From positions 3,978,501 through 4,042,500 of the forward strand of contig NZ_CP045403.1 in NCBI RefSeq assembly GCF_009363695.1: a stretch of 64,000 nt of DNA. The letters are read 5' to 3'. Position 1 is the first letter of the stretch. Every line of letters starts with the position of its first letter. The DNA comes from Bacillus sp. THAF10. GTDB taxonomy: Bacteria > Bacillota > Bacilli > Bacillales > Bacillaceae_I. Below the pieces are notes generated by a model. The model saw only the letters and a program-made list of their open reading frames with translations, made no database searches and was not told the origin of the DNA. Positions 3,858 to 44,725 of this stretch are shown here, piece by piece. Both the position numbers and the translations under genes were made by a program.

Positions 3858-3998
3858 AGCTCTTTTCTCAAAGCTTGTTGCTGTTTTCATGAAAAAAGTT
3901 GAACTTTTTTCCCCACTTTCACGAAAAGAGCACGACATCAAATGTCGGTACGTGTCTTAGAACGATGCGAAACAGCAACCACTTTTGCGAAAAAAGCT
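3858..3998 (+). repeat. Dispersed structured element, copy A
   Basis: One of three related elements in the window (others at 35341-35522 and 44555-44725). It has imperfect inverted ends (AGCTCTTTTC...GTTGCTG against AGCAAC...GCGAAAAAAGCT). An internal hairpin is GAAAAAAGTT/AACTTTTTTC. The invariant block AAAAGAGCACGACA is followed after exactly 36 nt by AGCAAC. GCTCTTTTC near the left end is complementary to GAAAAGAGC in the middle. It ends 25 nt before the start codon of the downstream lipoprotein, so it could be part of that gene's 5' leader. Confidence 0.75.
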
Positions 3999-4023
3999 AT
4001 TTTGCAGGAAAGGAGTAGGCCTT

Positions 4024-4359
4024 ATGACAAAAACGAAGAAAGTATTAACGAGTGTTTCTGCTACGATATTTGCGTTAGGAATGACTGGTTGTGGATCAGA
4101 GGAAGACACCTTGCCAGAAGTCCCATCGGATGATCGTTGTCAGGAGTATGAATGGGATAACGAAGAGGGCGTTTATGTTTGTGATGATGATGATTCAGAT
4201 TATTATCGTAGCTATTATCACGGCGGCAGTTTTTTTAAGAACAAATCCGCGTTAAAAAATAATTCTTCCTATAAAAGTTATCGGAACAGCACCACCTTTA
4301 AATCGAATACTTCAACGAGTAAAGGCTTCGGCAGCGGCTCATCTTTTTCTGGAGGATGA
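4024..4359 (+). CDS. YgiB/YjfM-like lipoprotein
   Basis: A 111-residue exported lipoprotein. It has a Lys-rich start, a hydrophobic core and a lipobox ending in MTGC, so it should be lipid-anchored outside the membrane. The mature part has an acidic, Cys- and Tyr-containing section and a Gly/Ser/Phe-rich tail, like the E. coli YgiB/YjfM (DUF1190) lipoproteins. The ATG at 4024 has a GGAAAGGAG site 8 nt upstream; the longer ORF from 3985 lacks one. The stop overlaps the next gene region (GGAGGATGAG), so it is translationally linked to the ATP-grasp ligase. This neighbourhood matches E. coli ygiB-ygiC and yjfM-yjfC, which supports the assignment despite weak sequence similarity. Confidence 0.82.
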   Translation: MTKTKKVLTSVSATIFALGMTGCGSEEDTLPEVPSDDRCQEYEWDNEEGVYVCDDDDSDYYRSYYHGGSFFKNKSALKNNSSYKSYRNSTTFKSNTSTSKGFGSGSSFSGG

Positions 4360-4364
4360 GGGAA

Positions 4365-5618
4365 ATGAGTAGGCATGTAAATCAGACAACACGAGATGAT
4401 TTTTATGGAAGGTATCCTACTTTTTGGAGCAATTTATATGGTCAGGAATATGCCCTTTTCACACTTCATGAGATTGAATCAGAGGAAGCAGCTCACATTC
4501 GCCAAGTAACCTATAGAGTGGGCCGAATTTTTTCCAAGATGGCGAAGCTGCTGCGAAAGCTCGATGAGGATACGCTACTGGAGCTTGGATATCCGAAAGA
4601 GACCTTGCCGTATCTAAAAATAAAGACTACGGAAGCAGAGTCCGTTATCTCGCGTGTGGATCTGGTGAAAACGAAGGATACATATAAAGTGTTAGAGATT
4701 AATAGTGACACCCCAACGTTTATTAAAGAGTTGTTTCATATCAATGGGGAAGTGTGTAAGGAGCTACAGCGCGAGAATCCGAACAATCAAGAAGAGGAAC
4801 GTTTGGGAAAAAGCGTTAAGAATGCTATTTTTGAAAGCTATCAGGATTTAGGGAAAAAGGATTTTCCAAACATTGTTTTTACGTCTCATGAAGAGAATTT
4901 CGAGGACAAACAAACGGTGTTGTACTTAATGGATATTTGTAAACTTCCTGCTCGGTATGTTCCTCTTCATAAGCTGCAAATTGCAGATGGTGAGGCGCTT
5001 CTTGATGAGGAAGGCAGCGTGATTGATGTCCTTTACCGTCAGACGTTTCCGATTGAATCGCTTATTCTTGATAAGGATGCGGAAACTGGGGCAAGTGTTG
5101 GACTCCAATTGTTAGAGCTTGTTCGTCTGAAAAAGCTTGCTGTCGTCAATCCCTTGAGTGCTTTCTTGCTTCAGTCTAAAGCGGTGCAAGCCGTAATTTG
5201 GGGACTTCATGAACAAAAAAGCGATTATTTTACAGAAGAGGAGCATCAGTGGGTCCGTGAGTATTTTCTCGCCACCTACCTTGAGCCTTCACCGTTTCTT
5301 GCCTCGGGGACAAAGTATGTGGAGAAACCGACGTTTGGCAGAGAAGGTGATTCGGTTAAAATTTTCGCGCCAACTGGTGAAAAAGTAGAGGAAGATCCGA
5401 ACAATAGCTATATCGACTATGTGCAGGTGTATCAGGAGTATATCGACCTGCCGGAGGTTTCATTTCAAATAAACCATGAGGAAAAACAGGGCCATATGAT
5501 GATTGGTACTTTCCTTGTGAATGAACAAGCAAGTGCATTTGGCTACCGTATTGGCAAACAAATCATCGATAATTTATCTTACTTTTTGCCTGTGGGGCTT
5601 AAAGAAACGAAGGAGTGA
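4365..5618 (+). CDS. Glutathionylspermidine synthase-like ATP-grasp ligase (YgiC/YjfC family)
   Basis: A 417-residue cytoplasmic protein of the ATP-grasp amide-ligase family whose founding member joins a peptide carboxylate to a polyamine. Conserved features include EINSDTPTF (about residue 113), the PTFGREGDSVKIF block near residue 327 (ATP/substrate loop) and a Gly-rich C-terminus (GTFLVNEQASAFGYRIG). There is no N-terminal amidase domain, as in YgiC/YjfC. ATG 4365 is chosen because GGAGG (4351-4355) is 9 nt upstream; the ATG at 4356 abuts it. Members of this subfamily have no proven glutathionylspermidine activity, and Bacillaceae lack glutathione, so the real substrate is unknown. It is flanked by a lipoprotein and DUF350, as in enterobacteria. 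Confidence 0.88.
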   Translation: MSRHVNQTTRDDFYGRYPTFWSNLYGQEYALFTLHEIESEEAAHIRQVTYRVGRIFSKMAKLLRKLDEDTLLELGYPKETLPYLKIKTTEAESVISRVDLVKTKDTYKVLEINSDTPTFIKELFHINGEVCKELQRENPNNQEEERLGKSVKNAIFESYQDLGKKDFPNIVFTSHEENFEDKQTVLYLMDICKLPARYVPLHKLQIADGEALLDEEGSVIDVLYRQTFPIESLILDKDAETGASVGLQLLELVRLKKLAVVNPLSAFLLQSKAVQAVIWGLHEQKSDYFTEEEHQWVREYFLATYLEPSPFLASGTKYVEKPTFGREGDSVKIFAPTGEKVEEDPNNSYIDYVQVYQEYIDLPEVSFQINHEEKQGHMMIGTFLVNEQASAFGYRIGKQIIDNLSYFLPVGLKETKE

Positions 5619-5623
5619 AAGAA

Positions 5624-6022
5624 ATGGGCAGCTATTTAGCGTCTTTTGGGATGTATGCAGGAACAGCATTTGTTCTCTTATTTGTTGGTTTATTTTTATT
5701 TGATTTAACCTCAAGAAATGAAAAAATCAAAAAGGTGGGGCAAGGAAATACAACGGCCGCACTTGTTATGGGTGGAAAGCTTCTCGGATTGGCTTTTGTC
5801 ATTGGGTCTGCGATCGCACACTCTGTCTCCTTCTTGGACATGGTAATTTGGGGAGTCATCGGGATTATCGCCCAAATCGTGTTTTACGTGCTAGCTGAAG
5901 TAGCAACGATTAATTACAGCATTAAGGAAGCCATCAACGAAGACCGCGTATCTGTCGGGATTTTGCTCATGATGTTCTCGCTTTCGATTGGTTGGATTAT
6001 TGCTAGTTCGTTGACGTACTAA
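5624..6022 (+). CDS. DUF350 family membrane protein (YjfL-like)
   Basis: A 132-residue protein with four hydrophobic segments (about residues 6-26, 45-68, 72-94 and 108-130), typical of DUF350. AGGAG overlaps the end of the ligase gene, 8 nt before ATG 5624. The three genes 4024-6022 therefore form one operon closed by a strong terminator. DUF350 proteins recur beside YgiC/YjfC ligases, and the pairing suggests a membrane partner for the ligase product. Biochemical function is unknown. Confidence 0.88.
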   Translation: MGSYLASFGMYAGTAFVLLFVGLFLFDLTSRNEKIKKVGQGNTTAALVMGGKLLGLAFVIGSAIAHSVSFLDMVIWGVIGIIAQIVFYVLAEVATINYSIKEAINEDRVSVGILLMMFSLSIGWIIASSLTY

Positions 6023-6030
6023 AAATAAAG

Positions 6031-6079
6031 AGCTGCTCAGAAGGTTGGAAATTAGCCAACTTTCTGAGCAGCTTTTTTT
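6031..6079 (+). terminator. Strong intrinsic terminator of the ATP-grasp operon
   Basis: An 18-bp stem (AGCTGCTCAGAAGGTTGG with its near-perfect complement) and a 7-nt loop are followed by seven T, right after the DUF350 stop codon. Confidence 0.95.
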
Positions 6080-6141
6080 GATATTTTGGGTGAATGGGGA
6101 CAGCAGAGGATGGATTTCCTGCTTTGTTGTCTCCATTTGGA

Positions 6142-7025
6142 CTCTATGAAGACATTAGCACTTCCTGTTGGCCTTTTGTTGTCCTCATTTGGCCTCTATG
6201 AAGACATCTCTGCTTCCGGGGCTTCCTCTGGTGTCCTCATTCCGACTCTATGGAGACATCTCGACCTCAGGGGCTTCCTCTGTTGTCCTCATTCCGACTC
6301 TATGGAGACATCTCTGCTTCCCGGGCTTCCTCTGTTGTCCTCATTCCACCTCTATGAAGACATCTCGACCTCGAGGGCTTCCTCTGTTGTCCTCATTCCG
6401 ACTCTATGGAGACATTTCTGCTTCAGGGGCTACCTCTGTTGTCCTCATTCCACCTCTATGAAGACATCTCCACCTCGAGGGCTTCCTCTGTTGTCCTCAT
6501 TCCATCTCTATGAAGACATCTCGACCTCGAGATCAACCTCTGTTGTCCTCATTCCGACTCTATGAAGACATCTCTGCTTCCGGGGCTACCTCTGTTGTCC
6601 TCATTCCACCTCTATGAAGACATCTCCACCTCGAGGGTTACCTCTGTTGTCCTCATTCCACCTCTATGAAGACATCTCGACCTACGGGGCTACCTCTGTT
6701 GTCCTCATTCCGCCTCTATGAAGACATCTCCACCTCAGGGGCTACCTCTGTTGTCCTCATTCCCCCTCTATGAAGACATCTCCACCTCGAGATCAACCTC
6801 TGTTGTCCTCATTCAGCCTCTATGGAGACATCTCCACCTCGAGGGCTACCTCTGTTGTCCTCATTTCGCCTCTATGAAGACATCTCGACCTCGAGATCAA
6901 CCTCTGTTGTCCTCATTCCACCTCTATGAAGACATCTCCACCTCGAGATCAACCTCTGTTGTCCTCATTCCGACTCTATGAAGACATCTCGACCTAGAGA
7001 TCAACCTCTGTTGTCCTCATTCATC
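6142..7025. repeat. 52-bp tandem repeat array, 17 units
   Basis: CTCTATG(A/G)AGACAT recurs at 6142 and then every 52 bp without exception to 6974 (17 starts), with a degenerate half-unit upstream near 6114-6141. Most of each unit is invariant (for example TCTGTTGTCCTCATTC). Variation is confined to short windows after GACATCTC (CGACCTCGAGATCAA, CCACCTCGAGGGCTA, CTGCTTCCGGGGCTT types) and to the two bases before the next unit. The first unit is the most diverged. 52 is not a multiple of three, and in-frame TGA codons recur, so it is not a coding repeat. It fills the space between convergent genes. Confidence 0.97.
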
Positions 7026-7048
7026 TCAACATACCCCTCTACCTAAGC

Positions 7049-8074
7049 TCAACCCACCTTAAATTTCGCTTCATAGGTGTCCTTATCACAAATAATATAA
7101 AGCTTCGCACCGCTCGGAATTTTCTCATCGAGCCTTCTGTTGATGTTCAAATCTTTCCCGTTGGACAATAAGGTTGCCCCTTTTTCAAGAATTTCGTGGA
7201 AGGCTTGCTTGTAGGTGCTCCAAGATGGGTCTGCCGTAATTTCATAGACATTATCGCCGTGCATTCTGCTTGTTAATTGTCTAAATAGATGGGTTGAACC
7301 ATTATACAGGGTGGCCTTTGCCATCAGGCGTGATGCCGTTTCCCCAGAGATCACGAACTCATCTACCTTGGCGTGGGAGAAATTCGGGATACTTTTTTCC
7401 TTGCGAATTTCCACGATCGTATAAACATTGCGGTTATGTAAGGTTGAGAGTCTTTCAACGGAGGAAGCAACTAGCAAGGTCTTCCCGTCAGAAAGCGATG
7501 CATCCTCAATTGTGTCATCAGAGAAAATCGTCACAGATTTTGCCTCTAAGACATTAGCTTGTAATAGCACGCTATCCTCGCTCGCATCTCCTTGCACATA
7601 ATCAATCTCTAAATCTCCCGGTTTCGTTTTCTTCGTATCAATTAGCACAATTGGCGCGTTTGGATTATCCTCTCGAATCTCCTCAATTGTTTTAGCTGTT
7701 TTCTCTGTCCAGCCAACAAAAATAAAATGATTCGTCTTCTTGCTATTCAATTTCCCTTCCTCCTTTAAGCGTTGATACAACGACAAAAGATTAACAACCT
7801 TTCCAATCAACACCCCTATTAGTCCAATACCAAAAACAAATAAAAACATTGCAAAAATTTTCCCTGGCACGGTGGCTGGTGAAACATCTCCATATCCCAC
7901 CGTTGTTACGGTCGTCATCGTCCACCAAACTCCCTCAAAAAAAGTGGGAAACGTGTCTGGCTCTAACGCATGTATGACAAACGAACTCCCAGCAATGACA
8001 AGAAAAGAAACTAGCACAATCCCAAAATTGTTCGTTTTCATCATGTTTTTAAAGAAACGTTGCAAAATCCACAC
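7049..8074 (-). CDS. Two-TM potassium channel with RCK (TrkA-N) domain
   Basis: A 341-residue channel subunit of MthK/YugO architecture. TM1 is about residues 17-37. The pore helix and selectivity filter TTVTTVGYGDVSP are near 58-66, and TM2 about 72-98. A cytosolic RCK domain starts near 113 (HFIFVGWTEKT) and a C-terminal regulatory portion follows. It should pass K+ and be gated by a ligand bound to the RCK ring. The GTG start has AAAGGAGG upstream. It is convergent with the ATP-grasp/DUF350 operon; K+ channels are reported in some neighbourhoods of that family. B. subtilis YugO is the closest type I can name, but orthology is not established. Confidence 0.92.
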   Translation of the reverse strand: MWILQRFFKNMMKTNNFGIVLVSFLVIAGSSFVIHALEPDTFPTFFEGVWWTMTTVTTVGYGDVSPATVPGKIFAMFLFVFGIGLIGVLIGKVVNLLSLYQRLKEEGKLNSKKTNHFIFVGWTEKTAKTIEEIREDNPNAPIVLIDTKKTKPGDLEIDYVQGDASEDSVLLQANVLEAKSVTIFSDDTIEDASLSDGKTLLVASSVERLSTLHNRNVYTIVEIRKEKSIPNFSHAKVDEFVISGETASRLMAKATLYNGSTHLFRQLTSRMHGDNVYEITADPSWSTYKQAFHEILEKGATLLSNGKDLNINRRLDEKIPSGAKLYIICDKDTYEAKFKVG

Positions 8075-8256
8075 TTAGAAGGTTCCTCCTTTACTTTTTC
8101 TCTTTCTCTATTTTAGCATTTATCTTTACTACTTTAGTAGGGGGAGAAAGGTTTCAGTTTTCGTTGCGAATAGACTGATTTTAGAAAGGTTCTTGAGGAT
8201 TTTCAGTGAAAGTTAGGTCGGTTCCTATACCCCTAGTAGGTATATACACGTGTGAT

Positions 8257-8365
8257 TCAGCGAAAATCTAAATATATCAGCGAAAACAGGGGGGATTCTG
8301 GCGACAATCACATTTTTTCAGCGATCATTCACCTATTCAAGCGAAAATAAAAATAATTAAGCGAA
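8257..8365. repeat. TCAGCGAA tandem array, copy 2
   Basis: Six degenerate units start at 8257, 8277, 8299, 8318, 8338 and 8358. Units and intervening bases resemble copy 1 at 3053-3165 (for example GATTCAGCGAA then ATCTAAATATATCAGCGAAA in both). It is in the upstream region of the potassium channel and downstream of the EamA gene. Confidence 0.8.
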
Positions 8366-8376
8366 TCCATTTTTTA

Positions 8377-9282
8377 TCAGCCTTTTTCATTGGGTATACC
8401 CCCACCTTTTTTGCTTTCCACCCTTGCTTTAGTTGCACCAATTAACAGTCCAATTCCAAGCAACACCAGCAACATCCCCAACCACGAGGTGCCACTTAAA
8501 CGTTCCCCTAATAAGAAAACCCCTAGCATGGCCGCCGTTAATGGTTCTCCTAAGGCCAAGGTCACTGCCGTAGAAGAGGAAACGTGCCTCATCCCTTTGG
8601 CGAACAATAAATAGGCGATGCCTGTTGCCATAATGCCAAGGTGAAGGCTAACACTTATGCCTCGACTACTCGCTATCCAAGAAAGATCAAACATAAATAA
8701 TAGTGGAAGTAAAAACACAGCACTAAGCGTGAACACTACAGCCACGACAGCTAACGAAGAATAGTTACCTACTAAGTTACGGCTGACAATCGCATAAATG
8801 GCAAAGGATAAACCGGCCCCTAGCGCCATCACCAATCCAACAGGGTCAACCATGACAGATTCTTTGTTCAAAAACAGCAGCATGCACCCGAAGATGGACA
8901 AAAAGGTCGACATCCACCACACCCTATTCGGACGCCTTTTTAAGAAAATCCATTCCATCAAACCCGATAAAATGGGAGCACTACCGATTGCAACCACGGT
9001 CCCAATAGCGACCCCAGTTTTCGTTACGGCTGAGAAAAACAACGGCTGATACATTGCCATGCTAAGGGCGGCGACAATCGTTGCTTTTAGAGGCCAATTT
9101 TTCAAGCTTAATTTTCCTGTAACTAGAACTAGCAGTAGTAAAAAGATGCCGCCAACAGCTAAGCGGACAGCGCCAATGGCAACGGGATGTGCGGATACGG
9201 GGGCAAATGCCTGAGCGGTTCCAGTTGTTCCCCAGAGCAAGGCTGCCATTAAAATAAGAAAGGGGGCTATTTTTTCGTTCAC
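8377..9282 (-). CDS. EamA/DMT-family transporter
   Basis: A 301-residue integral membrane protein with ten hydrophobic helices arranged as two EamA repeats (about residues 6-140 and 150-285). The first repeat carries the typical ALLWGTTG motif near residue 15. Family members export amino acids, metabolites or drugs. The GTG start has GGAGTGA upstream. It lies 86 bp downstream of an AraC regulator on the same strand, so it is probably regulated by or co-transcribed with it. The substrate cannot be deduced. Confidence 0.9.
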   Translation of the reverse strand: MNEKIAPFLILMAALLWGTTGTAQAFAPVSAHPVAIGAVRLAVGGIFLLLLVLVTGKLSLKNWPLKATIVAALSMAMYQPLFFSAVTKTGVAIGTVVAIGSAPILSGLMEWIFLKRRPNRVWWMSTFLSIFGCMLLFLNKESVMVDPVGLVMALGAGLSFAIYAIVSRNLVGNYSSLAVVAVVFTLSAVFLLPLLFMFDLSWIASSRGISVSLHLGIMATGIAYLLFAKGMRHVSSSTAVTLALGEPLTAAMLGVFLLGERLSGTSWLGMLLVLLGIGLLIGATKARVESKKGGGIPNEKG

Positions 9283-9368
9283 AAATACTCACTCCAATAA
9301 AAAAAGAATAGTTAAACCTAGCATAGAAAATCTCGCTCCAATTTTCTTTACCAAGTTTAATATTCTTT

Positions 9369-10061
9369 TTATCCTTTATGAAGCGTTCTGAATGTTTGCG
9401 GCGGCACTCCTTCTGTGCGGCCAAACCAGCGGGTAAAGGAGGATGCATTCTCAAAGCCCAGCTCCTCACTGATTCTTGACATCGACCATCCACTAGAAAG
9501 TAACAGATGTTTTGCCTCCTTCAAGCGAAGCTCCGATACATAGGCTTTCAGGCTTTTCCCCGTACGTTTTTTAAACCAGGCAGAATAATAAACTGGATGA
9601 TAATGCTCCATTTCCGCTAGCGTTTCTACCCTTAAGGCTTCCTTATAGTGGTTATGAAGATAGTCAATGGATACCGGATTAGCGTGTTGAAGCTTGCTGG
9701 TCACATATCTCGTTAAATCTCCTAAGGCCGACTTGTTATCCTGCCTTCCCGCCTCCTCCAATAGCAAATAGCGTATGGATGTCCATTGCTGATCCAAAGG
9801 AAGATACATACTGCTCGTACCTTCGGGTAAAAGGTACGTCGGCACATCCAAGATTAAAAATTCATTCCGATCCTCGGAACGAAAGTGATGATCGTAGGTT
9901 GGAGGCAGATAAAAAAAGGAATCAGGTTTCAGGTTAATCTCCTGCCATTCTGTCTGAATATCCAACGAGCCTTGTAACGGAAACAAAAACTGCCCATATT
10001 CATGCTGGTGGGAGGTTAGCTCTCTCTTATAAGACCTCTTTTCACAGGTGAGTTGGTGCAT
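9369..10061 (-). CDS. AraC-family transcriptional regulator
   Basis: A 230-residue protein with an N-terminal cupin-like sensing half (residues 10-90). A C-terminal AraC double helix-turn-helix follows (about 135-228), including RLKEAKHLLLSSGWSMSRIS and the signature ELGFENASSFTRWFGRTEGV. ATG is preceded by AAAGGAGG. It probably controls the adjacent EamA transporter gene. The first HTH copy is well conserved, so DNA binding should be intact. Confidence 0.9.
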   Translation of the reverse strand: MHQLTCEKRSYKRELTSHQHEYGQFLFPLQGSLDIQTEWQEINLKPDSFFYLPPTYDHHFRSEDRNEFLILDVPTYLLPEGTSSMYLPLDQQWTSIRYLLLEEAGRQDNKSALGDLTRYVTSKLQHANPVSIDYLHNHYKEALRVETLAEMEHYHPVYYSAWFKKRTGKSLKAYVSELRLKEAKHLLLSSGWSMSRISEELGFENASSFTRWFGRTEGVPPQTFRTLHKG

Positions 10062-10097
10062 GTGAATTCCTCCTTTATTGGGACGAGGGACCTGTCC

Positions 10098-11808: not shown

Positions 11809-11836
11809 GACCTGTCCCCGTGTCCCCCGTGTCCCC

Positions 11837-34083: not shown

Positions 34084-35316
34084 TTATCCTCGTTTCTTCG
34101 TAAACCCGTGTGTTCCTTGACTCCATAACACATGTAAAATCGTCGACCATGCACTAAGCTTTTCCTTAGGATTCTTGCCTTTTCCTATTCGAGCTAGCTG
34201 TTGCCCATACCAGCCAATTTCAAGCATCGGAATGTTTTTATCCACCTTTGTCATACCTGTTGTAATAGGCGGCATCATCACTTTTTCTAGCTCTCCATTC
34301 AACAAACGATTCGGTAAATCTGGATAAAGGGCAAAGGGACGTGCGATGCCAATCATGTCAATTTCATCTTCAGTGAGGGCATCTATCATCCCTGCTTTCG
34401 TACGAAAACCTCCTGTCACGACGATAGGAGTCGCAACTAGCTTCCTAACTTTTTCTGCATAGTGTAAAAAGTAAGCTTCACGCTGTCTCGTGCTTTCTTT
34501 TTCAGGTGCCCCCATCATCGCGGGCTTTTCATACGTTCCACCAGAGATCTCAATTAAATCTATTCCTGCTTCGGATAGTTTTTGAACAACTGCCATCGAT
34601 TCTTCTTCCGTAAAGCCACCACGCTGAAAGTCTGCTGAGTTTAGTTTGATTCCTATCGGAAAGTCCTCTCCAACTTGCTGTCGGATTTCTTTATATACTT
34701 CTAAAACAAAGCGCATTCGATTTTGTAGGCTTCCTCCCCATTCATCGACTCGTTGATTGTGGTGAGAGGACAAAAACTGATTCACCAAGTAACCATGGGC
34801 TCCATGGATTTGCACGCCGGTAAAGCCTGCTTTTTTCGCGATCCTCGCACTATTACCAAAACGTTTAATGACCTCTTTAATTTCTTCTGAAGTCAGCGCT
34901 CGTGGTGTGTTAAAAAATCTCCCTACTTTTCCAGATAGAGGGATAGCGCTTGGTGCCACTGGTTCTTTGGAGATGAATTTCGGCGATTGCTTCCCTGGGT
35001 GATTCAGTTGCATCCACAAATGGGTATTATTTTTTGTGCCTGCTTTCGCCCATTTTGATAGCATCTCTAAATCCTTTTCATCTTCTATAACGACGTTCCC
35101 AGGTTCTCCGAGTGCACGGCGATCAATCATGACATTTCCAGTAACAGAAAGACCAACGCCGCCCTCTGCCCACTTTTCATATAGTTTTACTAAGGACGTG
35201 GTTGGCGCATGATCTGCTGTTCCTTGCGCCTCGCTCATTGCTGATTTAAAGATACGATTTTTGATTACCGTTCCATTGGGTAAGGTCAGAGGAGCAGCTA
35301 AAATATTGTTTTCCAT
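34084..35316 (-). CDS. NADH:flavin oxidoreductase (old yellow enzyme family)
   Basis: A 410-residue TIM-barrel flavoenzyme that reduces activated alkenes, quinones or nitro compounds. The FMN/substrate motif is VQIHGAHGYLVNQFLSSHHN (near residue 170) with WGGSLQNRMRF after it; GGF near 320 is the phosphate loop. ATG 35316 is preceded by AAGGGA. A structured dispersed repeat ends 25 bp upstream, and an ArsR gene on the same strand lies beyond it. It is likely under that regulator's control. Confidence 0.93.
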   Translation of the reverse strand: MENNILAAPLTLPNGTVIKNRIFKSAMSEAQGTADHAPTTSLVKLYEKWAEGGVGLSVTGNVMIDRRALGEPGNVVIEDEKDLEMLSKWAKAGTKNNTHLWMQLNHPGKQSPKFISKEPVAPSAIPLSGKVGRFFNTPRALTSEEIKEVIKRFGNSARIAKKAGFTGVQIHGAHGYLVNQFLSSHHNQRVDEWGGSLQNRMRFVLEVYKEIRQQVGEDFPIGIKLNSADFQRGGFTEEESMAVVQKLSEAGIDLIEISGGTYEKPAMMGAPEKESTRQREAYFLHYAEKVRKLVATPIVVTGGFRTKAGMIDALTEDEIDMIGIARPFALYPDLPNRLLNGELEKVMMPPITTGMTKVDKNIPMLEIGWYGQQLARIGKGKNPKEKLSAWSTILHVLWSQGTHGFTKKRG

Positions 35317-35340
35317 TATGATGTTCCCTTCTTTCTTTTT

Positions 35341-35522
35341 GGCTGTTTTCGCAAACATTGTTGCTACTGCGTATAGTTAAGACACACGTGATAAAGGTTG
35401 CTGTCGTGCTCTTTTCCTGGAGGAGTTTATACACTTAGCAATTTTTCTTCGCATAATGATTGGAAAAAGTCTTAAAGCCGACTTTTTCTTAGGTTTTTAG
35501 CAACAATTTTTTGAAAAGAGCC
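35341..35522 (-). repeat. Dispersed structured element, copy C
   Basis: Minus-strand orientation. Ends are GGCTCTTTTC...GTTGCT and AGCAAC...TTTGCGAAAACAGCC (imperfect inverted repeats). It has an internal hairpin GAAAAAGTCGG/CTTTAAGACTTTTTC, then AAAAGAGCACGACA and AGCAAC exactly 36 nt later. Left GCTCTTTTC pairs perfectly with GAAAAGAGC. It is in the leader of the NADH:flavin oxidoreductase gene, ending 24 nt before its ATG, as copy A does. Confidence 0.75.
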
Positions 35523-35545
35523 TTCTTTTTTTAGATGTGGATAAT

Positions 35546-35824: not shown

Positions 35825-35852
35825 GCTTATGATTTCTCCACCTTCATATCGT

Positions 35853-37283: not shown

Positions 37284-37298
37284 TACCTTTATTTAAAA

Positions 37299-37324
37299 AG
37301 TCCTAATTTTACAAAAATTAGGAC
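37299..37324 (+). terminator. Terminator-like hairpin after CLC gene
   Basis: AGTCCTAATTTT/AAAATTAGGACT perfect 12-bp stem with a 2-nt centre. T-run is poor. Confidence 0.6.
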
Positions 37325-37390
37325 TATCTCATTTCTGAAGGTCATGCTTTAATTAAAGAAGATGGAAATAAATATAAAGGGTGGGGAATT

Positions 37391-39271
37391 ATGACGGATG
37401 AGAAATTTGAATTGCTCGTAAAAAAACTCGAAACAAAGGCGGAAGAAAATCCTGGGAGATATCGCTTTAAAGTGCTCTTATTAACGGCACTTGGCTATGG
37501 ATATATTTTATTCTTTCTCTCCTTGGTGTTAGTTTTACTGACTATTTCCGTTCTGTATATGACGGACGGAAATTTTTCGTCTGGCAGTCTGAAATTATTT
37601 TTAGTAACTGGTGCTCTATCTTTTTTCATTATTAAGTCGCTATATTTGACAATATCACTGCCAGAGGGGTATTACTTAAAGAAAAACGAAGCACCTGAAT
37701 TGGAGAAAGCCATCTCCACTATTAGTACTCAGCTTAAAACACCTAAAATTCATGCGATTGTGTTGGACAATGATTTCAATGCCGCTGTGATGCAGCATCA
37801 TAAATTTGGACTATTTGGTCCGAAGAAAAACATCTTGATGATTGGGATTCCACTGATGTCTGGCCTCAGCCGGGAGCAGTTTACCACTGTTTTAGCCCAT
37901 GAGCTAGCGCATATTTCCCATTCCGATACCTCATTCGGTGCGATGATCTACCGTGTGAGAAAAACTTGGGCGCAGCTTATGACTTCCCTAGAAAATAATG
38001 AACAGTTTGGAACCTTCTTATTCCGCAAGTTTATTCAATGGTTTTATCCTCGGTATTCGGCCCACACCTTTGTCATGGCCCGCCAGCAGGAGTATGCTGC
38101 AGATGCCGCAGCTGCAAAAGTAACATCACCTGAAGCAGTAAGGGATACTTTATGTACCGTCTCCATTGGCGGACAGTACTATTATGAGAATTTCTTTCAT
38201 GAGCTTTTCCAAGAAGGCTCCAAAACGAACGTCGTGCCTCACCCGTATACACAATTTTTCAGTAGATACCAAAAACTTAATCCCGCATTAGCAAACGAAT
38301 TTCTACAAAATGCCCTTTCAAGGGAAAGCAATGTAGAGGATACCCATCCATGCTTGACTGCGCGATTGAATGCTGTTGGGATGAAACCGGACATTCCAAC
38401 GAATAAGGAATCTGCCATCGACTTTTTCTTTGCCAATCCAAAAGCAATCCTCCAGCAATTTAATCAAGAATGGTTAGAGCACAACAAGGAAAGATGGAAC
38501 GAGCAAATCGCTTCCTATAATGATGCAAAAAGTAGATTGCAAGAATTAGAACAGAGTAAGGAACTTGATATCCATGGCAAATATGAAAAGGCGATTCTAA
38601 CTCGCAATCTAGTTGGATATGAACCGGCTATTCCCTTGCTAGAGGAAATGATTGTGGAGTTTTCGGAAGAGAGAGTTGCACCGGCTTACCTTGCACTCGG
38701 AAACATCTACTTGCATCAGGAAGATACTGCCCAAAAAGGCGAGCGTTACGTCAAAAAAGCGATGGAAATTGATTGGGAGCTAAAGGAAGAGGCTTTAGAC
38801 ACTCTTTGTGAATACTACTATCACACTGGCAACATGGAGGCATTTGAGGAAACTAGAATCCAGCTTGAAGCCTGGCCAACTCTATTAAAGCAGTTTGAAG
38901 AGGAAGCCTCTGACCTCAACCTCGACGACCAGTATATGGCACACGACCAAGCACCAGAACAAGTGAAGGAAATTGCCGACAATCTCCTTCCTCACAGTGA
39001 AATTGTGGAGGCGTATTTCATTCGAAAAGTGGTGAGTGTCATACCAGAGAGAAAGATATATTTACTTGGATTGAAGGTGCAAGTCCCAGAAGCTATCGAC
39101 CAAGACGAATACACAGAGCAATTATTAGATAAATATTCAGAAGAACTAGAGATTGTGGATAACATCCAGTTTTTCCTTCTGAATGGGAATGAGGAATTTG
39201 AGGCGAAAATGAAGGAAGTCGAAGGATCGCAGATATTAGAAAAGAGCGTACACAAGGAACACGTATCCTAA
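37391..39271 (+). CDS. M48 family membrane metalloprotease with TPR-like tail
   Basis: A 626-residue protein. Two TM helices (about 27-55 and 66-90) precede the M48 zinc-protease core with HELAH (170-174) and a third ligand Glu in EYAADAAAA near 237. A helical, TPR-like C-terminal half follows (about 340-500, LALGNIYLHQEDTAQKGER). It is likely a membrane-protein quality-control protease with a protein-binding tail. GGGTGGGG ribosome site upstream. It is monocistronic, with a terminator. Confidence 0.92.
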   Translation: MTDEKFELLVKKLETKAEENPGRYRFKVLLLTALGYGYILFFLSLVLVLLTISVLYMTDGNFSSGSLKLFLVTGALSFFIIKSLYLTISLPEGYYLKKNEAPELEKAISTISTQLKTPKIHAIVLDNDFNAAVMQHHKFGLFGPKKNILMIGIPLMSGLSREQFTTVLAHELAHISHSDTSFGAMIYRVRKTWAQLMTSLENNEQFGTFLFRKFIQWFYPRYSAHTFVMARQQEYAADAAAAKVTSPEAVRDTLCTVSIGGQYYYENFFHELFQEGSKTNVVPHPYTQFFSRYQKLNPALANEFLQNALSRESNVEDTHPCLTARLNAVGMKPDIPTNKESAIDFFFANPKAILQQFNQEWLEHNKERWNEQIASYNDAKSRLQELEQSKELDIHGKYEKAILTRNLVGYEPAIPLLEEMIVEFSEERVAPAYLALGNIYLHQEDTAQKGERYVKKAMEIDWELKEEALDTLCEYYYHTGNMEAFEETRIQLEAWPTLLKQFEEEASDLNLDDQYMAHDQAPEQVKEIADNLLPHSEIVEAYFIRKVVSVIPERKIYLLGLKVQVPEAIDQDEYTEQLLDKYSEELEIVDNIQFFLLNGNEEFEAKMKEVEGSQILEKSVHKEHVS

Positions 39272-39287
39272 ATATGTCATAACAGAT

Positions 39288-39335
39288 AAAAGCCAGGGAG
39301 CCTTCATTTTTCGGAGGAATCCCTGGCTTTTTTTT
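39288..39335 (+). terminator. Terminator of the M48 protease gene
   Basis: AAAGCCAGGGA/TCCCTGGCTTT stem followed by a run of T, 17 nt past the stop codon. Confidence 0.92.
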
Positions 39336-39410
39336 AAGCGTTTCAATAGGTTAAAGAGTTATCTGTTTCGTCGCTGTGTTTAGAGGCAGAAATAATTCCC
39401 TAGCCTACAA

Positions 39411-40443
39411 CTAATCTCTTAATCTCTTTAAAATCCGGTAATGTCCTTTTCCGGGAATATATCCAAAGGTTCGATTTAGATGTTGTATAGGAGCGTTACT
39501 TTTCTCAGAATCGGTAGTCATCGTTTGCGCTCCTGCTTTCCTTGCCGTCTCAATGGATAGAGCTTTTAATGCTTTTGCAATGTCACGCCCACGATATTCT
39601 TTATGAACGCCTGTATAGTTTGTATACACTACTATAGTTTGTATACACTACTCCTTCCTCTTCTGTGGTGAATAATTGAGTCACGCCCACGAACCGCTCC
39701 CCATCAACTGCAATGAAAACCCAATCTTTGCGCGAAAAATTTTCTGGCATGAACTCTTTTTTCCATTGATCAAATGGAGCAACACTACCGTACTGACCTG
39801 GGTTATCCTTTGAGGTATCCACCCACAATTCATACAATTTTCTTTCGGTATCGTCTGTTATAGTTTCAGCAAGTGTAACAAACTGAATGCAAGACTTTGT
39901 TACTTGTTCTACTAAACTCGCATATCTAGCAAAGTCAAATTGATGGACGTCCAACTCAAGGTCAAATACATGAGCATCCAAAGAATAACCACGTTTCTGG
40001 ACAAAAGGAAGGGAAGCATCAATCCAATCCATTATGACGGATGTTAAGACAGAAGCTTACTGTTCATTTGCCCAATTTTCAAGATGTGCTAAAATCCTCT
40101 CTCCTACCCCCTGGCCACTGTAATCAGGATGAGCACAAAAAATACACCCCACACTACCAGCATCAACCCAAGGAGCACGAAAAACAGCACCATACCCAAT
40201 CACTTGACCGTGATCATTTTCTGCAATCACTCTTGTTCTACCAAAACCAATCAAGAGACCCTCTTCATTTAATGTCAAATTTGATGTCGTTGGAATTTGC
40301 GAATCCTCTTCAGCAAGGGTTTGAGCCGTTGTTGATCCTGGTTCTACCATATTAAGAAGGGTAGCAATGTGCTCATAATCTTCTGGGATTCTAATATCTC
40401 GAAGCTTTATGTGACAAGGTTTACTAGATTCAGTAATAGACAT
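39411..40443 (-). pseudogene. Tandem GNAT acetyltransferase with two inactivating lesions
   Basis: The frame starting at ATG 40443 (AAGGAGAAG site) encodes a GNAT domain through HPDYSGQGVGERILAHLENW and then hits TAA at 40057-40059. The same frame resumes with ASVLTSVIMDWIDASLPFVQKRG, the usual continuation of two-domain GNATs. Later a 19-bp exact tandem duplication (39614-39632 and 39633-39651) shifts the frame; removing one copy restores VVYTNYTGVHKEYRGRDIAK and the second GNAT end. One nonsense codon plus one frameshift thus split a gene of about 343 codons into three ORFs. Confidence 0.88.
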
Positions 40444-40690
40444 ATGTATCTTCTCCTTCGTGTTTACAAGAACGATATTTTTTACTGTAAGAACAGCCAT
40501 TGACTTCCTTTTAATTCCATTACGAACATATATTATTTCTAGTAGATCCCTCTTTTTTCCTTTTTGGGTTAAAAAAATAAGGATTCGGCAAAAACAGTGT
40601 AAGGTTAAAAAGGTTATTCCTTTAACAGTAGATTTCAGCAAAGGATGTTCTGGAGGATATCTAAAGGAATTTGGATAATATATATTCAAA

Positions 40691-40729
40691 CTAAAAGTGT
40701 TACGTCAATGGAGGCCCAACACTTTTTTT
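40691..40729 (+). terminator. Orphan terminator-like hairpin
   Basis: AAAAGTGTT/AACACTTTT arms with T7 on the plus strand, but no plus-strand gene precedes it. Confidence 0.5.
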
Positions 40730-41260
40730 ATAGAAATGCAACTTGGTTTATTATGCTACAGTTTCTGTATCAAAAATGTACTTGGCTCTTAATCCTCTGA
40801 GAGTTGACTTATTTTTAAATACTTATCTACTACCAGTTCACTTATTATACTTCTAGTGTAATATTTTCTTATATTTGTTCCTTTTAAATTTCTTTATTGT
40901 ATTTAAAATTATTAGAAGATAAAGAGAAAAACCCAATTTTTTCATCCCCGTTTCAAGGTTCATATCCACTTTACTCTTCTAACTCTATGAATATTCTTTT
41001 AGGAATAAAGATAGTTATTATTGTATGATTATGGTATTTTTATATTAGAAGAGCTTCTATTTTTTCCCAATAGTTACCTTATTTAACCAAAAACCATCAT
41101 GGATTCAATCGAATCAGAAGTTTTCCCATTTTATGAAAATTAGTTATACCTTCTATCATTTTGTGAAATTTATTTAAAATGTTTAATAGAATAAGTAAAT
41201 CTATGATGAAATGCAGGACAATAATTGTCGCTGAAAACTTTAATAAGGGGGATTTTAGAA
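40730..41260. other. AT-rich non-coding stretch
   Basis: About 530 bp with no ORF carrying a ribosome site, no repeat recognised and no RNA gene evident. It is distinctly AT-rich, as is the gene pair downstream, which fits horizontal acquisition. Confidence 0.5.
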
Positions 41261-42289
41261 GTGCTTAAGAAGCTATTTGCATTATTTACTATTTTGATGT
41301 TAACTTTTAGCATAGTACCTTCCGGGTTTGCAAAGGGAAATGACACTAACAAACATCCAGAATTTAGTTTTAATACGGGAAATGATAGAAAAATAGATTC
41401 TTTCGAAAGTAAAGGAAATATTGTTTACAAAATCGAAAACACACTTGAAGAACAGATGAATTTTATTAGTAAAAATAACCTACCGAATGATTTAAAGAAT
41501 GAAAATGCAACTCAAACTTTAACTAAGACTGAAGAAAAAGCATTTATGCAAAAGCTAGGAATTACAGGGTATAAAATAAACCATGTAGAAACAGGTAAAA
41601 ATGAAAATGGCGAGGACTATATTGCTACTTACTACACCCCCATATATACTACCGAGAAAGATAACTTACTTTATAGCAACTTAGTTAATACAAACTCTTT
41701 TGATCCAGGTGAAGGTGCACTAAGAATTTATATGACATTTGAGAACCTTTATTATGATCATCAATTTGATTCTGTTAGAGGATTGAAAAGCACTTTAGAA
41801 AGAGAAAGTTACTCTAAAACATTCTCGTTTATTTCCGGTCAAGTTACTTCTAATAAAGTATGGATAAGTGTACTAAGTACATTTTTCACTGGTGGTGTAG
41901 CAGCTGCAATTGACCAGTGGGCATTAGGAGATGGTAAAGCTTCAAGTTGGATTAGAGAAGCATATAAGAATGGACAGGTTTATACAGGTGGAAAATGGAA
42001 AACTTATTTTACTTCTAATCAACATGAAGTGTATTGGTCACACAAACAATTTGCATATGACAGATATTCAGGTCAACAATTAGCTACAACAGACTTTAAC
42101 TATTTACCGGCCAATGGATATTTACCTTTCGAATGGGTACCGCAAGTTAATTTCTCTAACAATACTTACATCTTAAATGTTGCACAAAATCAATACAAGG
42201 CTGGTAGAGGACCACTTCAAGATAACGGCTATCCAAATACTTATTACACAAGTAACTGGAAACAAAAAGGATCTGGGAGAAACTACTAA
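41261..42289 (+). CDS. Secreted protein of unknown function
   Basis: A 342-residue exported protein. An N-terminal LKKL start and hydrophobic core end in a likely signal-peptidase site (GFAKG, around residue 24). GTG 41261 has AAGGGGGA 8 nt upstream. The mature part has no known motif that I recognise. It contains a possibly membrane-active hydrophobic segment (WISVLSTFFTGGVAAAIDQWAL, about 206-227; text split for clarity at FFTGG) and an aromatic- and Asn/Tyr/Gly-rich C-terminal third. A large secreted bacteriocin or a surface binding protein is possible but unproven. The next gene is a small membrane-anchored protein 60 bp on, which could be a partner. Confidence 0.7.
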   Translation: MLKKLFALFTILMLTFSIVPSGFAKGNDTNKHPEFSFNTGNDRKIDSFESKGNIVYKIENTLEEQMNFISKNNLPNDLKNENATQTLTKTEEKAFMQKLGITGYKINHVETGKNENGEDYIATYYTPIYTTEKDNLLYSNLVNTNSFDPGEGALRIYMTFENLYYDHQFDSVRGLKSTLERESYSKTFSFISGQVTSNKVWISVLSTFFTGGVAAAIDQWALGDGKASSWIREAYKNGQVYTGGKWKTYFTSNQHEVYWSHKQFAYDRYSGQQLATTDFNYLPANGYLPFEWVPQVNFSNNTYILNVAQNQYKAGRGPLQDNGYPNTYYTSNWKQKGSGRNY

Positions 42290-42303
42290 GATTCACTATT
42301 ATA

Positions 42304-42333
42304 TAACCCCTTTCATCAAAAGGGGTTATTTTG
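42304..42333 (+). terminator. Hairpin between the secreted protein and its neighbour
   Basis: TAACCCCTTT/AAAGGGGTTA stem then ATTTTGTTT. Likely a terminator or attenuator reducing read-through into the following gene. Confidence 0.7.
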
Positions 42334-42349
42334 TTTAGGAGGAAACTAC

Positions 42350-42772
42350 TTGAAGAAAATCTTACTCACTGCTTCAATACTCGTTATTGTCATATCAAGT
42401 TTATTTTACATAGTAATAGATAATTCATTCAATAAACCCTATAATTTAGTAGAAGAACTTTTTACGAATGAAAAAAAATTAAACAATATAAATATAAGTG
42501 TTCTAACTGAAAAGCAATGGAAAGAAATCTCGGAAACATCCCCTTTCGTAAAAGTAAGAGAACCCGTAGATATTAAGCGAATTACATCTTGCCCAAATTT
42601 GCTATTTGAAGAAGGAAATGCTCCACTTATTTATAAAATTAAAGAGTTTCAATCTAAACAAATTAACATAACTGTTAGATGTTTAAATAATGATCAATCT
42701 CTTTCTTTCCAGTCTTTGATTCTTTTGGAGAAAGTTGAAGGAGAATGGAAAATAGTCGGTGAAGTCAAATAA
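42350..42772 (+). CDS. Small membrane-anchored or exported protein
   Basis: A 140-residue protein beginning KKILLTASILVIVISSLFYI, an uncleaved anchor or signal peptide, then a soluble domain with two Cys (in TSCPN and VRCLN) that could form a disulphide. TTG start with TAGGAGGAAA upstream. No known family. It directly follows the secreted protein gene and may be its immunity or accessory protein, an inference from proximity only. Confidence 0.65.
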   Translation: MKKILLTASILVIVISSLFYIVIDNSFNKPYNLVEELFTNEKKLNNINISVLTEKQWKEISETSPFVKVREPVDIKRITSCPNLLFEEGNAPLIYKIKEFQSKQINITVRCLNNDQSLSFQSLILLEKVEGEWKIVGEVK

Positions 42773-42800
42773 TAGTTTTTTATATAAAAAACTATAAAAG
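42773..42800 (+). terminator. Hairpin after the small exported protein
   Basis: ATAGTTTTTT/AAAAAACTAT arms immediately after the stop codon. Confidence 0.55.
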
Positions 42801-42861
42801 CTAATGACCTTTTATATATTATCCCCGGCTATTAGTTACTATCTCTTTTTCTCTAAAAAAA

Positions 42862-42892
42862 TTTAACAGGTCAGATCACTATCCCATCTGAC
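42862..42892 (-). terminator. Terminator of msrA
   Basis: GTCAGAT/ATCTGAC stem followed by a TTAAATTTTTTT-type tract on the minus strand. Confidence 0.7.
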
Positions 42893-42911
42893 TACTTTTT
42901 CTTAAATTCCC

Positions 42912-43382
42912 TTACTTATATTTATTTAACAACGCTTCAGGAATATGACAATAATCATCTGGGCACCGTGTTAACCTATCCTGATGCTCCTCCGCACTTC
43001 TTACATAGTTTGAAAGCGGCAATACTTCGACGACGATACGGTTAGCATCGCTGCGATTCTGAATAAACTTCCTCGCCGCTTCTAAATGTTTGGCGTCTTC
43101 ACTATACATACCTGTTCTATATTTCTCCCCAACATCCGCTCCTTGTTTATTCAAGCTATACGGATCGATTATCTCAAAGAAATATTCCATTAATCTCTCC
43201 AGGCTTACAACCCTCTGATCAAATTCTGTTTTCACACATTCCGCATAGCCATCATACTCGCCATCCAGTGTGTTAGTTTTGCCATTCGCTCTTCCCGCTT
43301 CGGTAAACGTAACACCAGGTAATGTTTTAATAAATGCCTGAACTCCCCAGAGACATCCACCTGCGAAATATACTGTTTCCAT
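42912..43382 (-). CDS. msrA: Peptide methionine-S-sulfoxide reductase
   Basis: A 156-residue enzyme repairing oxidised Met. The active-site motif is GGCLWG (Cys9), a Leu variant of the usual GCFW. Glu and Tyr positions are retained (DGYAECVKTEFD), and a resolving Cys is likely in DDYCHIP near the end. It is shorter than typical MsrA but complete at both ends. A 45-residue ORF precedes it by 19 nt and may be co-transcribed. Confidence 0.88.
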   Translation of the reverse strand: METVYFAGGCLWGVQAFIKTLPGVTFTEAGRANGKTNTLDGEYDGYAECVKTEFDQRVVSLERLMEYFFEIIDPYSLNKQGADVGEKYRTGMYSEDAKHLEAARKFIQNRSDANRIVVEVLPLSNYVRSAEEHQDRLTRCPDDYCHIPEALLNKYK

Positions 43383-43401
43383 GTTGGTTCTCCGTTCAAA
43401 A

Positions 43402-43539
43402 TTAGTTTTGACTTAACTTCTCTAAAGCCTTCCCGTTTTGCTTCACAGCTTTCTCAAAGCTTTCTTGAATCATTTCTTTTCGGGTTACTTTCTGATCCTC
43501 TTTTTTGTTCCCTGCATTCGTTTCATCTTTCTTTGTCAT
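43402..43539 (-). CDS. Small highly charged protein upstream of msrA
   Basis: A 45-residue ORF (starts MTKKDETNAGNKKED, ends EKLSQN) with GGAG 9 nt before ATG 43539. It is Lys/Glu-rich, helical, soluble and lacks Cys. It ends 19 nt before msrA, so probably is the first gene of that operon. Family not recognised. Confidence 0.65.
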   Translation of the reverse strand: MTKKDETNAGNKKEDQKVTRKEMIQESFEKAVKQNGKALEKLSQN

Positions 43540-43612
43540 GCTTTCCACTCCAAACGATTACTAAATACTCCTATTATAACATCCGTTATTAAAGGTTATC
43601 TTCATCTAGCAG

Positions 43613-44479
43613 TCAATTTTTCTCCACAAAAAACATCGAAAGCGCACCTAGTCCAACATGTGTTCCAACCGACACTCCCATCTGCATGATGTGGATGTCC
43701 CCCTTGAAATCTGTTTCTTTTTCCAGTTTCACTTTGAGGTTTTGCGCAACCTTTATGTCGGAGGTGTAGCCTATGATCACAAATTCCGTCATCTTTTCAT
43801 CGTTCCGTTTGATGAACTCCTGCACATAATGCACGAGGACCCGCTTTAGTCCTCTTTCCTTTGCAACTATTGCCCCTTTTCCATTTTTCATGGTCATAAT
43901 TGGCTTCAGCATCAAAAGCTTGCCGAGGAATGCGCTGGCATTTGACAGCCTTCCACTCTTAATCAGATGATCTAAGTCATCGACAGAAAGGTAATGCTTC
44001 ACATTGGTTTTATACGTTTCGTTAAACTCTACTAGCTCCTCGAAGGTTGCCCCTCGCTCTCGCATTAACGCACTCTTTAGCAACAGCAAGCCGCTCCCGT
44101 GGCTCATACATTTGGAATCCACCACATGGATTTTCACCGTGGAATCAGGATTCTCCTCGTAAAAATATCCCTTCGCCAGCTCAGCAGATTGATAGGCTCC
44201 ACTTGTCCCGCTAGACATACAAATACAAAGAATTTCCTTATATCCACTCTCAATCGCATTTTTCATGATCGCCAAATATTCCACAGGACTTGGCATCCCC
44301 GTCGTCGGAAACTCCGAAAGCGCCTCCATCATTCCATAAAACTCATCCGGCATTATATCCACTCTATCCTTATAGGTCTTTCCCTCTATATTAATCGACA
44401 ACGGCGCCATGCTAATGTCATACATCTCCAACACTTCATCTGCCAAATCACAAGTTGAGTCCGCCATTAATTTAATCAT
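43613..44479 (-). CDS. DegV family fatty-acid-binding protein
   Basis: A 288-residue protein of the DegV/FakB fold, which holds a fatty acid for phosphorylation by fatty acid kinase. The N-terminal KLMADSTCDLADE block, TTGMPSPVEYL near residue 65 and the lipid-contact segment SSGTSGAYQSA near 92 are present. ATG 44479 has TTGGAGG 7 nt upstream. It is monocistronic. Which fatty acid it binds cannot be told. Confidence 0.93.
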   Translation of the reverse strand: MIKLMADSTCDLADEVLEMYDISMAPLSINIEGKTYKDRVDIMPDEFYGMMEALSEFPTTGMPSPVEYLAIMKNAIESGYKEILCICMSSGTSGAYQSAELAKGYFYEENPDSTVKIHVVDSKCMSHGSGLLLLKSALMRERGATFEELVEFNETYKTNVKHYLSVDDLDHLIKSGRLSNASAFLGKLLMLKPIMTMKNGKGAIVAKERGLKRVLVHYVQEFIKRNDEKMTEFVIIGYTSDIKVAQNLKVKLEKETDFKGDIHIMQMGVSVGTHVGLGALSMFFVEKN

Positions 44480-44554
44480 TTTGTTCCTCCAATAAAACAT
44501 ACTGCTCTAATCTTAACCGAAAGGGGATGGATAGACTATTGTTTTTATTTTCTA

Positions 44555-44725
44555 GGCTCGTTTCTAACAGATTATTGAAAAAGTTGGGTTTAAGACTTTT
44601 TCCAATCTTATGCAAATAAAAATGGGATTATGTTTAAATCTCCCTATACAAAAAGAGCACGACAACCACATTGCTTACTGTATTTTTAGGTATGTGCAAC
44701 AGCAACAAGGTTTGCGATAATAGCC
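44555..44725 (+). repeat. Dispersed structured element, copy B
   Basis: Core identical in plan to copies A and C: GGCTCGTTTC left end, hairpin GAAAAAGTTGG/TTTAAGACTTTTTC, AAAAGAGCACGACA, then AGCAAC after exactly 36 nt, and a right end GGTTTGCGATAATAGCC. The stretch TTTAAGACTTTTTCCAATC is shared with copy C. It lies between the divergently placed degV start and the PHP operon end; here no gene starts immediately downstream in the same orientation. Confidence 0.75.

Follow-up and report, generated by a model that had tools for sequence, protein, structure and literature searches.

The dispersed repeat found three times in the window, the 64,000-nucleotide stretch of DNA analysed here, belongs to a MITE family whose mobiliser was very probably an IS1595-family transposase. 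The element is about 183 bp long, and relatives occur in other Bacillaceae. The preliminary description had counted three copies; fetched stretches of the same 4.09-Mb Sutcliffiella-like chromosome contain 76 full or nearly full ones. What sets this otherwise mostly ordinary MITE apart is the conserved layout of its interior, for which a role in transposition at the DNA level seems to us more likely than one as RNA.

Copies of the element in the window

All three proposed copies, A, B and C, were borne out (Table 1). A search of the window with AGAGCACGACA-N20..48-AGCAAC gives three matches, each spanning 53 nt with 36 nt from AAAAGAGCACGACA to AGCAAC, and no match is found in 100 dinucleotide shuffles. 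As had been described, each copy contains the AAAAAGT/ACTTTTT hairpin and has inverted outer ends. Two further features, both assigned earlier to copies A and C, are found in A and B. One is the full complementarity of the left-end sequence GCTCTTTTC to the middle motif GAAAAGAGC; copy C has GCTCGTTTC at its left end and AAAAAGAGC in the middle. The other is the placement just ahead of a co-oriented start codon, with copy A ending 25 nt upstream of the ATG at 4024 and copy B 24 nt upstream of the ATG at 35316 (minus strand). Copy C is flanked by a DegV-family gene, whose 5′ end faces it, and by a PHP-domain gene, whose 3′ end faces it; both genes are on the opposite strand.

Table 1 Features of the three MITE copies and neighbouring genes in the window
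Feature	Position	Strand	Remarks
MITE copy A	3858..3998	+	141 bp, left arm short
Left terminal repeat, copy A	3858..3882	+	
Hairpin H1, copy A	3891..3911	+	GAAAAAAGTTGAACTTTTTTC
Middle motif, copy A	3923..3931	+	GAAAAGAGC, left-end complement
Right terminal repeat, copy A	3974..3998	+	
Left target duplication, copy A	3850..3857	.	TTTTTGTA; partner ATTTTGCA at 3999-4006, 6/8
Gene downstream of copy A	4024..4359	+	no Pfam match
MITE copy B	35341..35522	-	182 bp
Left terminal repeat, copy B	35499..35522	-	
Hairpin H1, copy B	35463..35488	-	
Middle motif, copy B	35408..35416	-	GAAAAGAGC
Right terminal repeat, copy B	35341..35365	-	
Target duplication, copy B	35523..35530	.	AAAAAGAA, perfect; partner at 35333-35340
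Gene downstream of copy B	34084..35316	-	Oxidored_FMN (PF00724)
MITE copy C	44555..44725	+	171 bp, ends decayed, target duplication not visible
Hairpin H1, copy C	44577..44602	+	
Middle motif, copy C	44650..44658	+	AAAAAGAGC, decayed
Right terminal repeat, copy C	44701..44725	+	

Ends, target duplications and distribution

Genome-wide, the AGAGCACGACA-N20..48-AGCAAC pattern has 54 matches (22 on the forward and 32 on the reverse strand), and a reversed-pattern control does not match at all. The terminal inverted repeats are 25 bp long and imperfect, with inward-read consensus sequences GGCTCTTTTCTAAAAGATTGTTGCT and GGCTGTTTTCGCAAACTTTGTTGCT. Target duplications were scored in 153 copies (76 from this chromosome, 68 from other Sutcliffiella and 9 from elsewhere), which are not independent, one insertion shared by two strains being counted twice. 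The mean identity of the paired 8-bp flanks is 0.773 versus 0.490 (s.d. 0.011) for shuffled partners, and the signal is weaker at 7 bp (0.545) and 9 bp (0.527). The 8-bp duplication is perfect in 53 of the 153 copies and matches at seven or more positions in 86; the target is AT-palindromic. Among the 76 copies of this chromosome, whose median pairwise identity is 0.79, 36 retain at least seven of eight positions, a clear duplication having been lost in 41% or more.

An empty site was identified for one insertion (L097), which is missing in two genomes (G009 and G014), with 7 and 11 nt between the aligned flanks. The same comparison for copy B met relatives that are too distant, its neighbouring genes aligning at only approximately 64–73%. 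The copies are mostly intergenic, 2 of the 145 in the gene-context analysis lying inside an ORF (gene calls were ORF-based, and 6 copies could not be placed). Terminator-like flanks adjoin 26/153 copies on the left and 20/153 on the right, versus 34/600 T-rich control sites, a control that includes coding DNA. Of 299 genomes sampled from the order, 34 contain the end motif, which has no match in viral contigs. Model R1 has matches in 146/299 genomes, a result that gives neither copy count nor spread, as only 16 candidates were scored per genome, a weak match may reflect nothing more than the end repeat and the training set included some of the genomes.

The element is short and non-coding, with terminal inverted repeats, a fixed 8-bp duplication, dispersed copies and one empty site. 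The earlier reading as a MITE family is well supported by the inverted ends, the duplications, the empty site and the ends held in common with IS1595-family transposase loci.

The probable mobilizing transposase

The same terminal repeats surround IS1595-family (PF12762, ISXO2-like DDE) transposase genes in other Bacillales genomes, belonging to other genera. Among 45 PF12762 loci examined, 9 share the 25-bp ends of the MITE, as TTTTC-type pairs flanked by 8-bp duplications matching at seven or more positions, and 11 have ends of the related GGCTCTGTTAAA type. Duplications of IS1595-family elements are usually 8 bp (PMC8101967). The MITE differs from these ISs in having no transposase gene. 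A PF12762 match is absent from this genome, so the mobiliser is one that we infer; a matching gene is not required of a MITE. Among the 11 genomes of the genus in the sample, only G002 has PF12762 and its ends differ at three scored positions; a mobiliser with identical ends is thus not known inside the genus. Several genomes rich in copies have no PF12762 match. An IS1595-family DDE transposase would have moved the element by binding its terminal repeats, leaving the 8-bp duplication on insertion.

Mobilization by another transposase family is very improbable. ISL3 was the first guess, on what we took to be a likeness of ends and duplication, and is largely refuted: PF01610 has no match in this genome and, among 16 genomes of the genus, is present only in G005 and G010, and seven scanned PF01610 loci have no convincing copy of the MITE ends, which IS1595 loci do have. 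Candidate autonomous elements were also rejected. The ends of a 2.9-kb pair (G000:1479968-1482849) belong to separate MITEs flanking ordinary genes, and inward-facing end pairs in G205 and G293 are likewise separate MITEs.

Conserved layout of the interior

The 36-nt spacing, described as invariant, holds in all three window copies and is common rather than invariant in the family. Spacing, covariation and gaps were analysed in 134 copies of 165–190 nt, 7 of them from outside the genus; the spacing is 36 nt in 105, 35 nt in 10, 37 nt in 10 and another length in 9. Relative to substitutions, gaps are 1.7- to 2.5-fold scarcer in this interval than in the left interior. The right variable segment has more substitutions than the left (0.252 in copies of this chromosome, 0.353 in all) and fewer gaps per substitution (0.052 and 0.104, respectively, versus 0.131 and 0.178). 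A right arm of 74–76 nt recurs in other genera. The spacing had been taken to argue for a selected structure; its length is indeed constrained, but the right arm shows no conserved pairing, with no pair predicted by RNAalifold on its 76 nt and a mean folding z-score, among 60 of the 134 copies, of +0.28 on one strand and +0.29 on the other.

Conservation is also seen in the middle motif that complements the left end, and several other interiors elsewhere share such a complement. Of 14 distinct interiors 8 have one, as do 28 of 46 end pairs versus 5.6% in shuffles; two of the 46 are from Sutcliffiella, and some pairs in one locus overlap. By contrast, nine IS1595-type ISs have no end-complement (at most one mismatch) within 240 nt of an end; most have one-mismatch copies deeper inside. 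A hairpin like H1 in the 55 nt beside an IS end exceeded shuffles in 1 of 18 cases (L224, right end), and a 6-bp AAAAAG/CTTTTT repeat in IS L203 is within chance. The conserved layout was not seen in ISs encoding the transposase.

The MITE may also be compared with the bcr family of the Bacillus cereus group, likewise dispersed, intergenic and structured repeats in a Bacillus relative (Bcr1; PMC2267715). QMITE-type bacterial MITEs have a similar anatomy (7–9-bp duplications, 23–29-bp ends; PMC10969869), size, AT-richness and intergenic location; they belong to another host and are not known to have an internal complement of one end.

Possible roles of the interior

The preliminary description had proposed a mobile structured RNA leader as the alternative to a MITE. 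A leader RNA is not supported, because the downstream genes of 137 placed copies are oriented without bias, 69 in the same and 68 in the opposite direction (ORF-based calls); in addition, copy C precedes no gene and the window has no Rfam match at gathering score. A lenient threshold gave one weak, chance-level match (copy B), and among 20 loci of relatives the sole matches at gathering score are a T-box (L185) and a SAM riboswitch (L182). A functional RNA of any sort, whether leader or small RNA, folded through H1 and left end–middle pairing and spread by the MITE's transposition, is unlikely, as the unbiased gene orientation, the lack of an Rfam match and the unstructured right arm all speak against it. 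In favour of this reading, the left-arm hairpin H1 covaries, with 9.04 of 11 pairs being Watson–Crick versus 8.20 (s.d. 0.07), a value reached by none of 300 permutations, and the left interior folds better than shuffles on both strands (mean z −1.97 on plus and −1.71 on minus, 60 copies). G–U exceeds A–C in the inner H1 pairs (29.6 versus 12.6, weighted), but with the outer pairs included the values are 39.2 versus 31.2. At position 11 of the left end–middle helix, 96% of 26 rows, mostly from outside Sutcliffiella, are paired versus 50% when permuted, but the figure is 41% for the 134 copies, and in these mostly Sutcliffiella copies the helix shows no covariation (8.388 versus 8.374, reached by 70 of 500 permutations). 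The pattern that had been set against a selected structure, no covariation and random placement with target duplications only, is not fully what is found, because H1 covaries.

A neutral interior, in which an old MITE was amplified by chance and the layout reflects shared ancestry and few indels in a short arm, is rather unlikely. All copies are related, the 26 rows and 14 interiors derived from outside form few groups, and quasi-palindrome correction could keep a hairpin without selection. However, the right segment is richer in substitutions yet poorer in gaps per substitution than the left, and the end-complement recurs across interiors, and across end pairs more often than in shuffles.

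We tentatively favour a cis-acting role at the DNA level, in which the constrained interior would aid transposition. Its parts are the left-arm hairpin and a second instance of the outer end box (GAAAAGAGC) approximately 76 nt from the right end; it could act as an accessory site and spacer through putative binding of the transposase or a host protein. Against this DNA-level role, H1 covaries as a folded strand would, and most of the middle-to-end pairing facts tested equally fit an RNA or single-stranded DNA helix. A broader and rather speculative reading is a Bacillales-wide non-autonomous superfamily that joins IS1595-type ends to an interior plan of its own, comprising a middle end-complement, a right arm of near-fixed length and a covarying hairpin, with little other similarity between interiors. 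The interior would then be an independent nucleic-acid module that either governs transposition of the element carrying it, by serving as an accessory transpososome site or as a switch that competes with the ends, or works as a mobile small RNA.

The repeat that dots Sutcliffiella intergenic regions now has ends, a target and a probable mobiliser, and annotators need not call it a riboswitch. If its interior plan is selected, each genome would offer many natural variants for learning which parts of a MITE are required in addition to the ends. Copy-rich genomes without PF12762 make it possible to test whether the element persists once its driver is lost; if the superfamily reading is true, such parasites could outlive the transposase that moves them.

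Copies and spread of the family

The stretches described at 3858–3998 (+, copy A), 35341–35522 (−, copy B) and 44555–44725 (+, copy C) are present as described, and belong to a MITE family of about 183 bp with imperfect 25-bp terminal inverted repeats. Their shared two-box pattern (one box, a 36-nt spacer and then AGCAAC) matches three times in the window, each over 53 nt, against 0 in 100 shuffles, and 54 times in the whole THAF10 genome (control, 0), where the chromosome holding the window has 4,087,834 bases. Searched exactly in named genomes, the pattern gave 73 stretches, mainly in Sutcliffiella (horikoshii, deserti, rhizosphaerae) and Bacillus horikoshii FJAT-14233, with further matches in Bacillus sp. 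RO1, Metabacillus idriensis and [Bacillus] enclensis. Five stretches lie in Amycolatopsis, Castellaniella, an Acidobacteria MAG and Choladousia (two), of which the two judged, L039 and L088, look like chance matches. From fetched loci, 153 copies were collected, allowing at most 3 mismatches in the core and 11 and 10 at the ends; THAF10 supplied 76 of these, other Sutcliffiella 68 and further genomes 9. Most of the THAF10 copies are not recent, as their median pairwise identity is 0.79 and their median nearest-neighbour identity 0.90.

Insertion and target duplications

Across the 153 copies, identity between the two 8-base flanks averages 0.773, whereas shuffled partners give 0.490 (s.d. 0.011); agreement is 0.545 at 7 bp and 0.527 at 9 bp. 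Duplications are perfect in 53 of the 153 and match at 7/8 or better in 86 (26 and 36 of the 76 THAF10 copies), and the target is nearly palindromic, T-rich and then A-rich. Copy B has a perfect duplication, AAAAAGAA, copy A one of 6/8, and none is visible in the flanks of copy C. An FJAT-14233 insertion (L097:4520–4702) is missing from genomes G009 and G014, where the aligned flanks are 7 and 11 nt apart; in G003 they are separated by 44 nt. These 8-bp duplications and the empty site bear out one of two readings in the preliminary description, a MITE family, which transposes or did so in the past.

At L036:1199–1763 (G000:C1, about 1887137–1887701), three copies of 0.98–0.99 identity stand in direct tandem, separated by one shared 8-bp TTTTCATA. 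Doubled left ends, with GCTCTTTTC repeated 13–16 nt apart, occur at four places (L016, L024, L035 and L121); the likeness of the left end CTTTTCTAAAAG to the insertion target suggests self-targeted nested insertion. In S. deserti (L069:3560–3967), a short MerR-like frame, named by eye, ends within the sequence flanking a MITE copy whose 8-bp duplication is TTTAATAA, and looks truncated by the insertion.

Interior architecture

The commonest lengths among the 153 copies are 184 (49 copies), 183 (31) and 185 bp (16).

Anatomy of a full MITE copy
Feature	Extent or position	Source
Left end	25 bp	alignment of copies
Hairpin H1	columns 35–43 with 52–60	alignment of copies
Variable stretch	between H1 and middle motif	alignment of copies
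Middle motif GAAAAGAGC	column 109	alignment of copies
ACGACA, then 36-nt variable stretch	3′ of middle motif	alignment of copies
Right end	25 bp, from column 160	alignment of copies

The left-arm hairpin H1 covaries, with 9.04 of 11 pairs Watson–Crick against 8.20 (s.d. 0.07) on permutation (reached in 0 of 300). Its outermost pair is G–C in 20, U–A in 14, A–U in 3 and C–G in 1 of a 42-copy alignment, and the stem is perfect over 8 bp or more in 95 of 134 left arms. The left end is complementary to the middle motif at 9/9 positions in 94 of 134 copies; their covariation does not exceed permutation (8.388 versus 8.374; reached in 70 of 500), and because permuting partners changes so little, this complementarity is, within this set, conservation and not covariation.

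In a wider sample of 46 end pairs, 44 from outside the genus, 28 (61%) have an internal inverted copy of one end's outer 9 bases with at most one mismatch, against 5.6% (s.d. 3.4) of Markov shuffles; among distinct interiors the figure is 8/14. The internal complement mostly fits the GGCTC end and less the GGCTG end, L175 being an exception. At position 11, adjoining it, 96% of 26 rows show a pair, with 50% expected from permutation (reached in 0 of 2000); these rows derive from few groups, so that independent events are few. Positions 12 and 13 in these rows do not pair above permutation, and position 11 pairs in only 41% of the 134 copies. Either a helix or a second protein-binding site could account for this covariation and the tracking of end variants. 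Other MITEs with the same ends (L172, L182, L185, L186 and L187) contain GC-rich interior stretches, GCTTTCCGCGGGGC being an example, and the end-complement was not found in them.

Most right arms, from middle motif to right end, are 76 nt long (115 of 153 copies), with 14 at 75 nt and 12 at 77 nt. Several families in other genera fall at 74–76 nt, and a further group differs in having a 91–102-nt arm with the hairpin on the opposite side. The 36-nt spacing, earlier called invariant, is the prevailing length of the right variable segment (105 of 134), the remainder differing; the commonest left length occurs in 44 of 134. The right segment has more substitutions, yet fewer gaps per substitution, than the left. 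A search of the right arm for conserved pairing found none, and its folding is not in excess.

A candidate mobiliser

A sample of 299 genomes from the order, covering 116 genera, yielded end motifs with an ACTTTGTTGCT half in 34 genomes and 18 genera. A 1105-bp element with MITE-type ends in G038 (L167:1501–2605) combines a nucleotidyltransferase gene (PF06042, E 2.8e-59) with a remnant similar to the C-terminus of an IS1595-type transposase (PF12762, E 0.0071, below the curated cut-off). PF12762 was therefore searched and matched in 60 of the 299 genomes; at the 45 loci examined, TTTTC-type end pairs flanked by duplications matching at 7/8 or better were seen in 9 cases, and related GGCTCTGTTAAA-type ends in 11. 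Duplications of 8 bp, as in the MITE family, are described as usual for IS1595-family elements (PMC8101967). PF12762 has no match in the THAF10 chromosome and, among 11 genomes of the genus in the sample, matches G002 alone, so that an IS1595-type driver is inferred, not observed. Exact left/right end motifs number 27, 22, 33 and 60 in G000, G004, G009 and G014, all without a PF12762 match; G002 has 9, and three PF12762 matches.

Ten full ISs have no end-complement (at most one mismatch) within 240 nt of an end, and 9 of the 10 have one with a single mismatch deeper inside. An end-adjacent hairpin beyond shuffles occurs at 1 of 18 ends of nine ISs; the 6-bp A/T repeat that L203 has close to the H1 position is within chance. 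The MITE interior thus does not appear to be simply what is left of the examined ISs; an unseen parent could differ.

Function and novelty

The other earlier reading, a mobile structured RNA leader, is not supported for the family. Of the 145 copies inspected, an ORF encloses 2 and 6 are unplaced; the remaining 137 divide into 69 that share the orientation of the gene downstream and 68 that oppose it, which counts against a leader function. Individual copies close upstream of start codons, A and B among them, may still affect their neighbours. At 35316–35358 (−), a flavin oxidoreductase frame is open in frame from an ATG (35358) within copy B's right end, probably by coincidence, given a nearer ATG at 35316.

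MITEs and IS1595 ends are already known kinds. Neither this family nor an IS1595-driven MITE in Bacillaceae was found in searches of an open-licence literature library. A stem-loop survey lists families Bhal-1 and Bhal-2 in B. halodurans (PMC2267715), one of which could be related to the present family. The unusual part is the interior plan common to these elements. That this interior is neutral seems unlikely, and that it functions as RNA unlikelier still; both rank behind a role at the DNA level in transposition, which in our judgement would best, if tentatively, fit the interior constraints.
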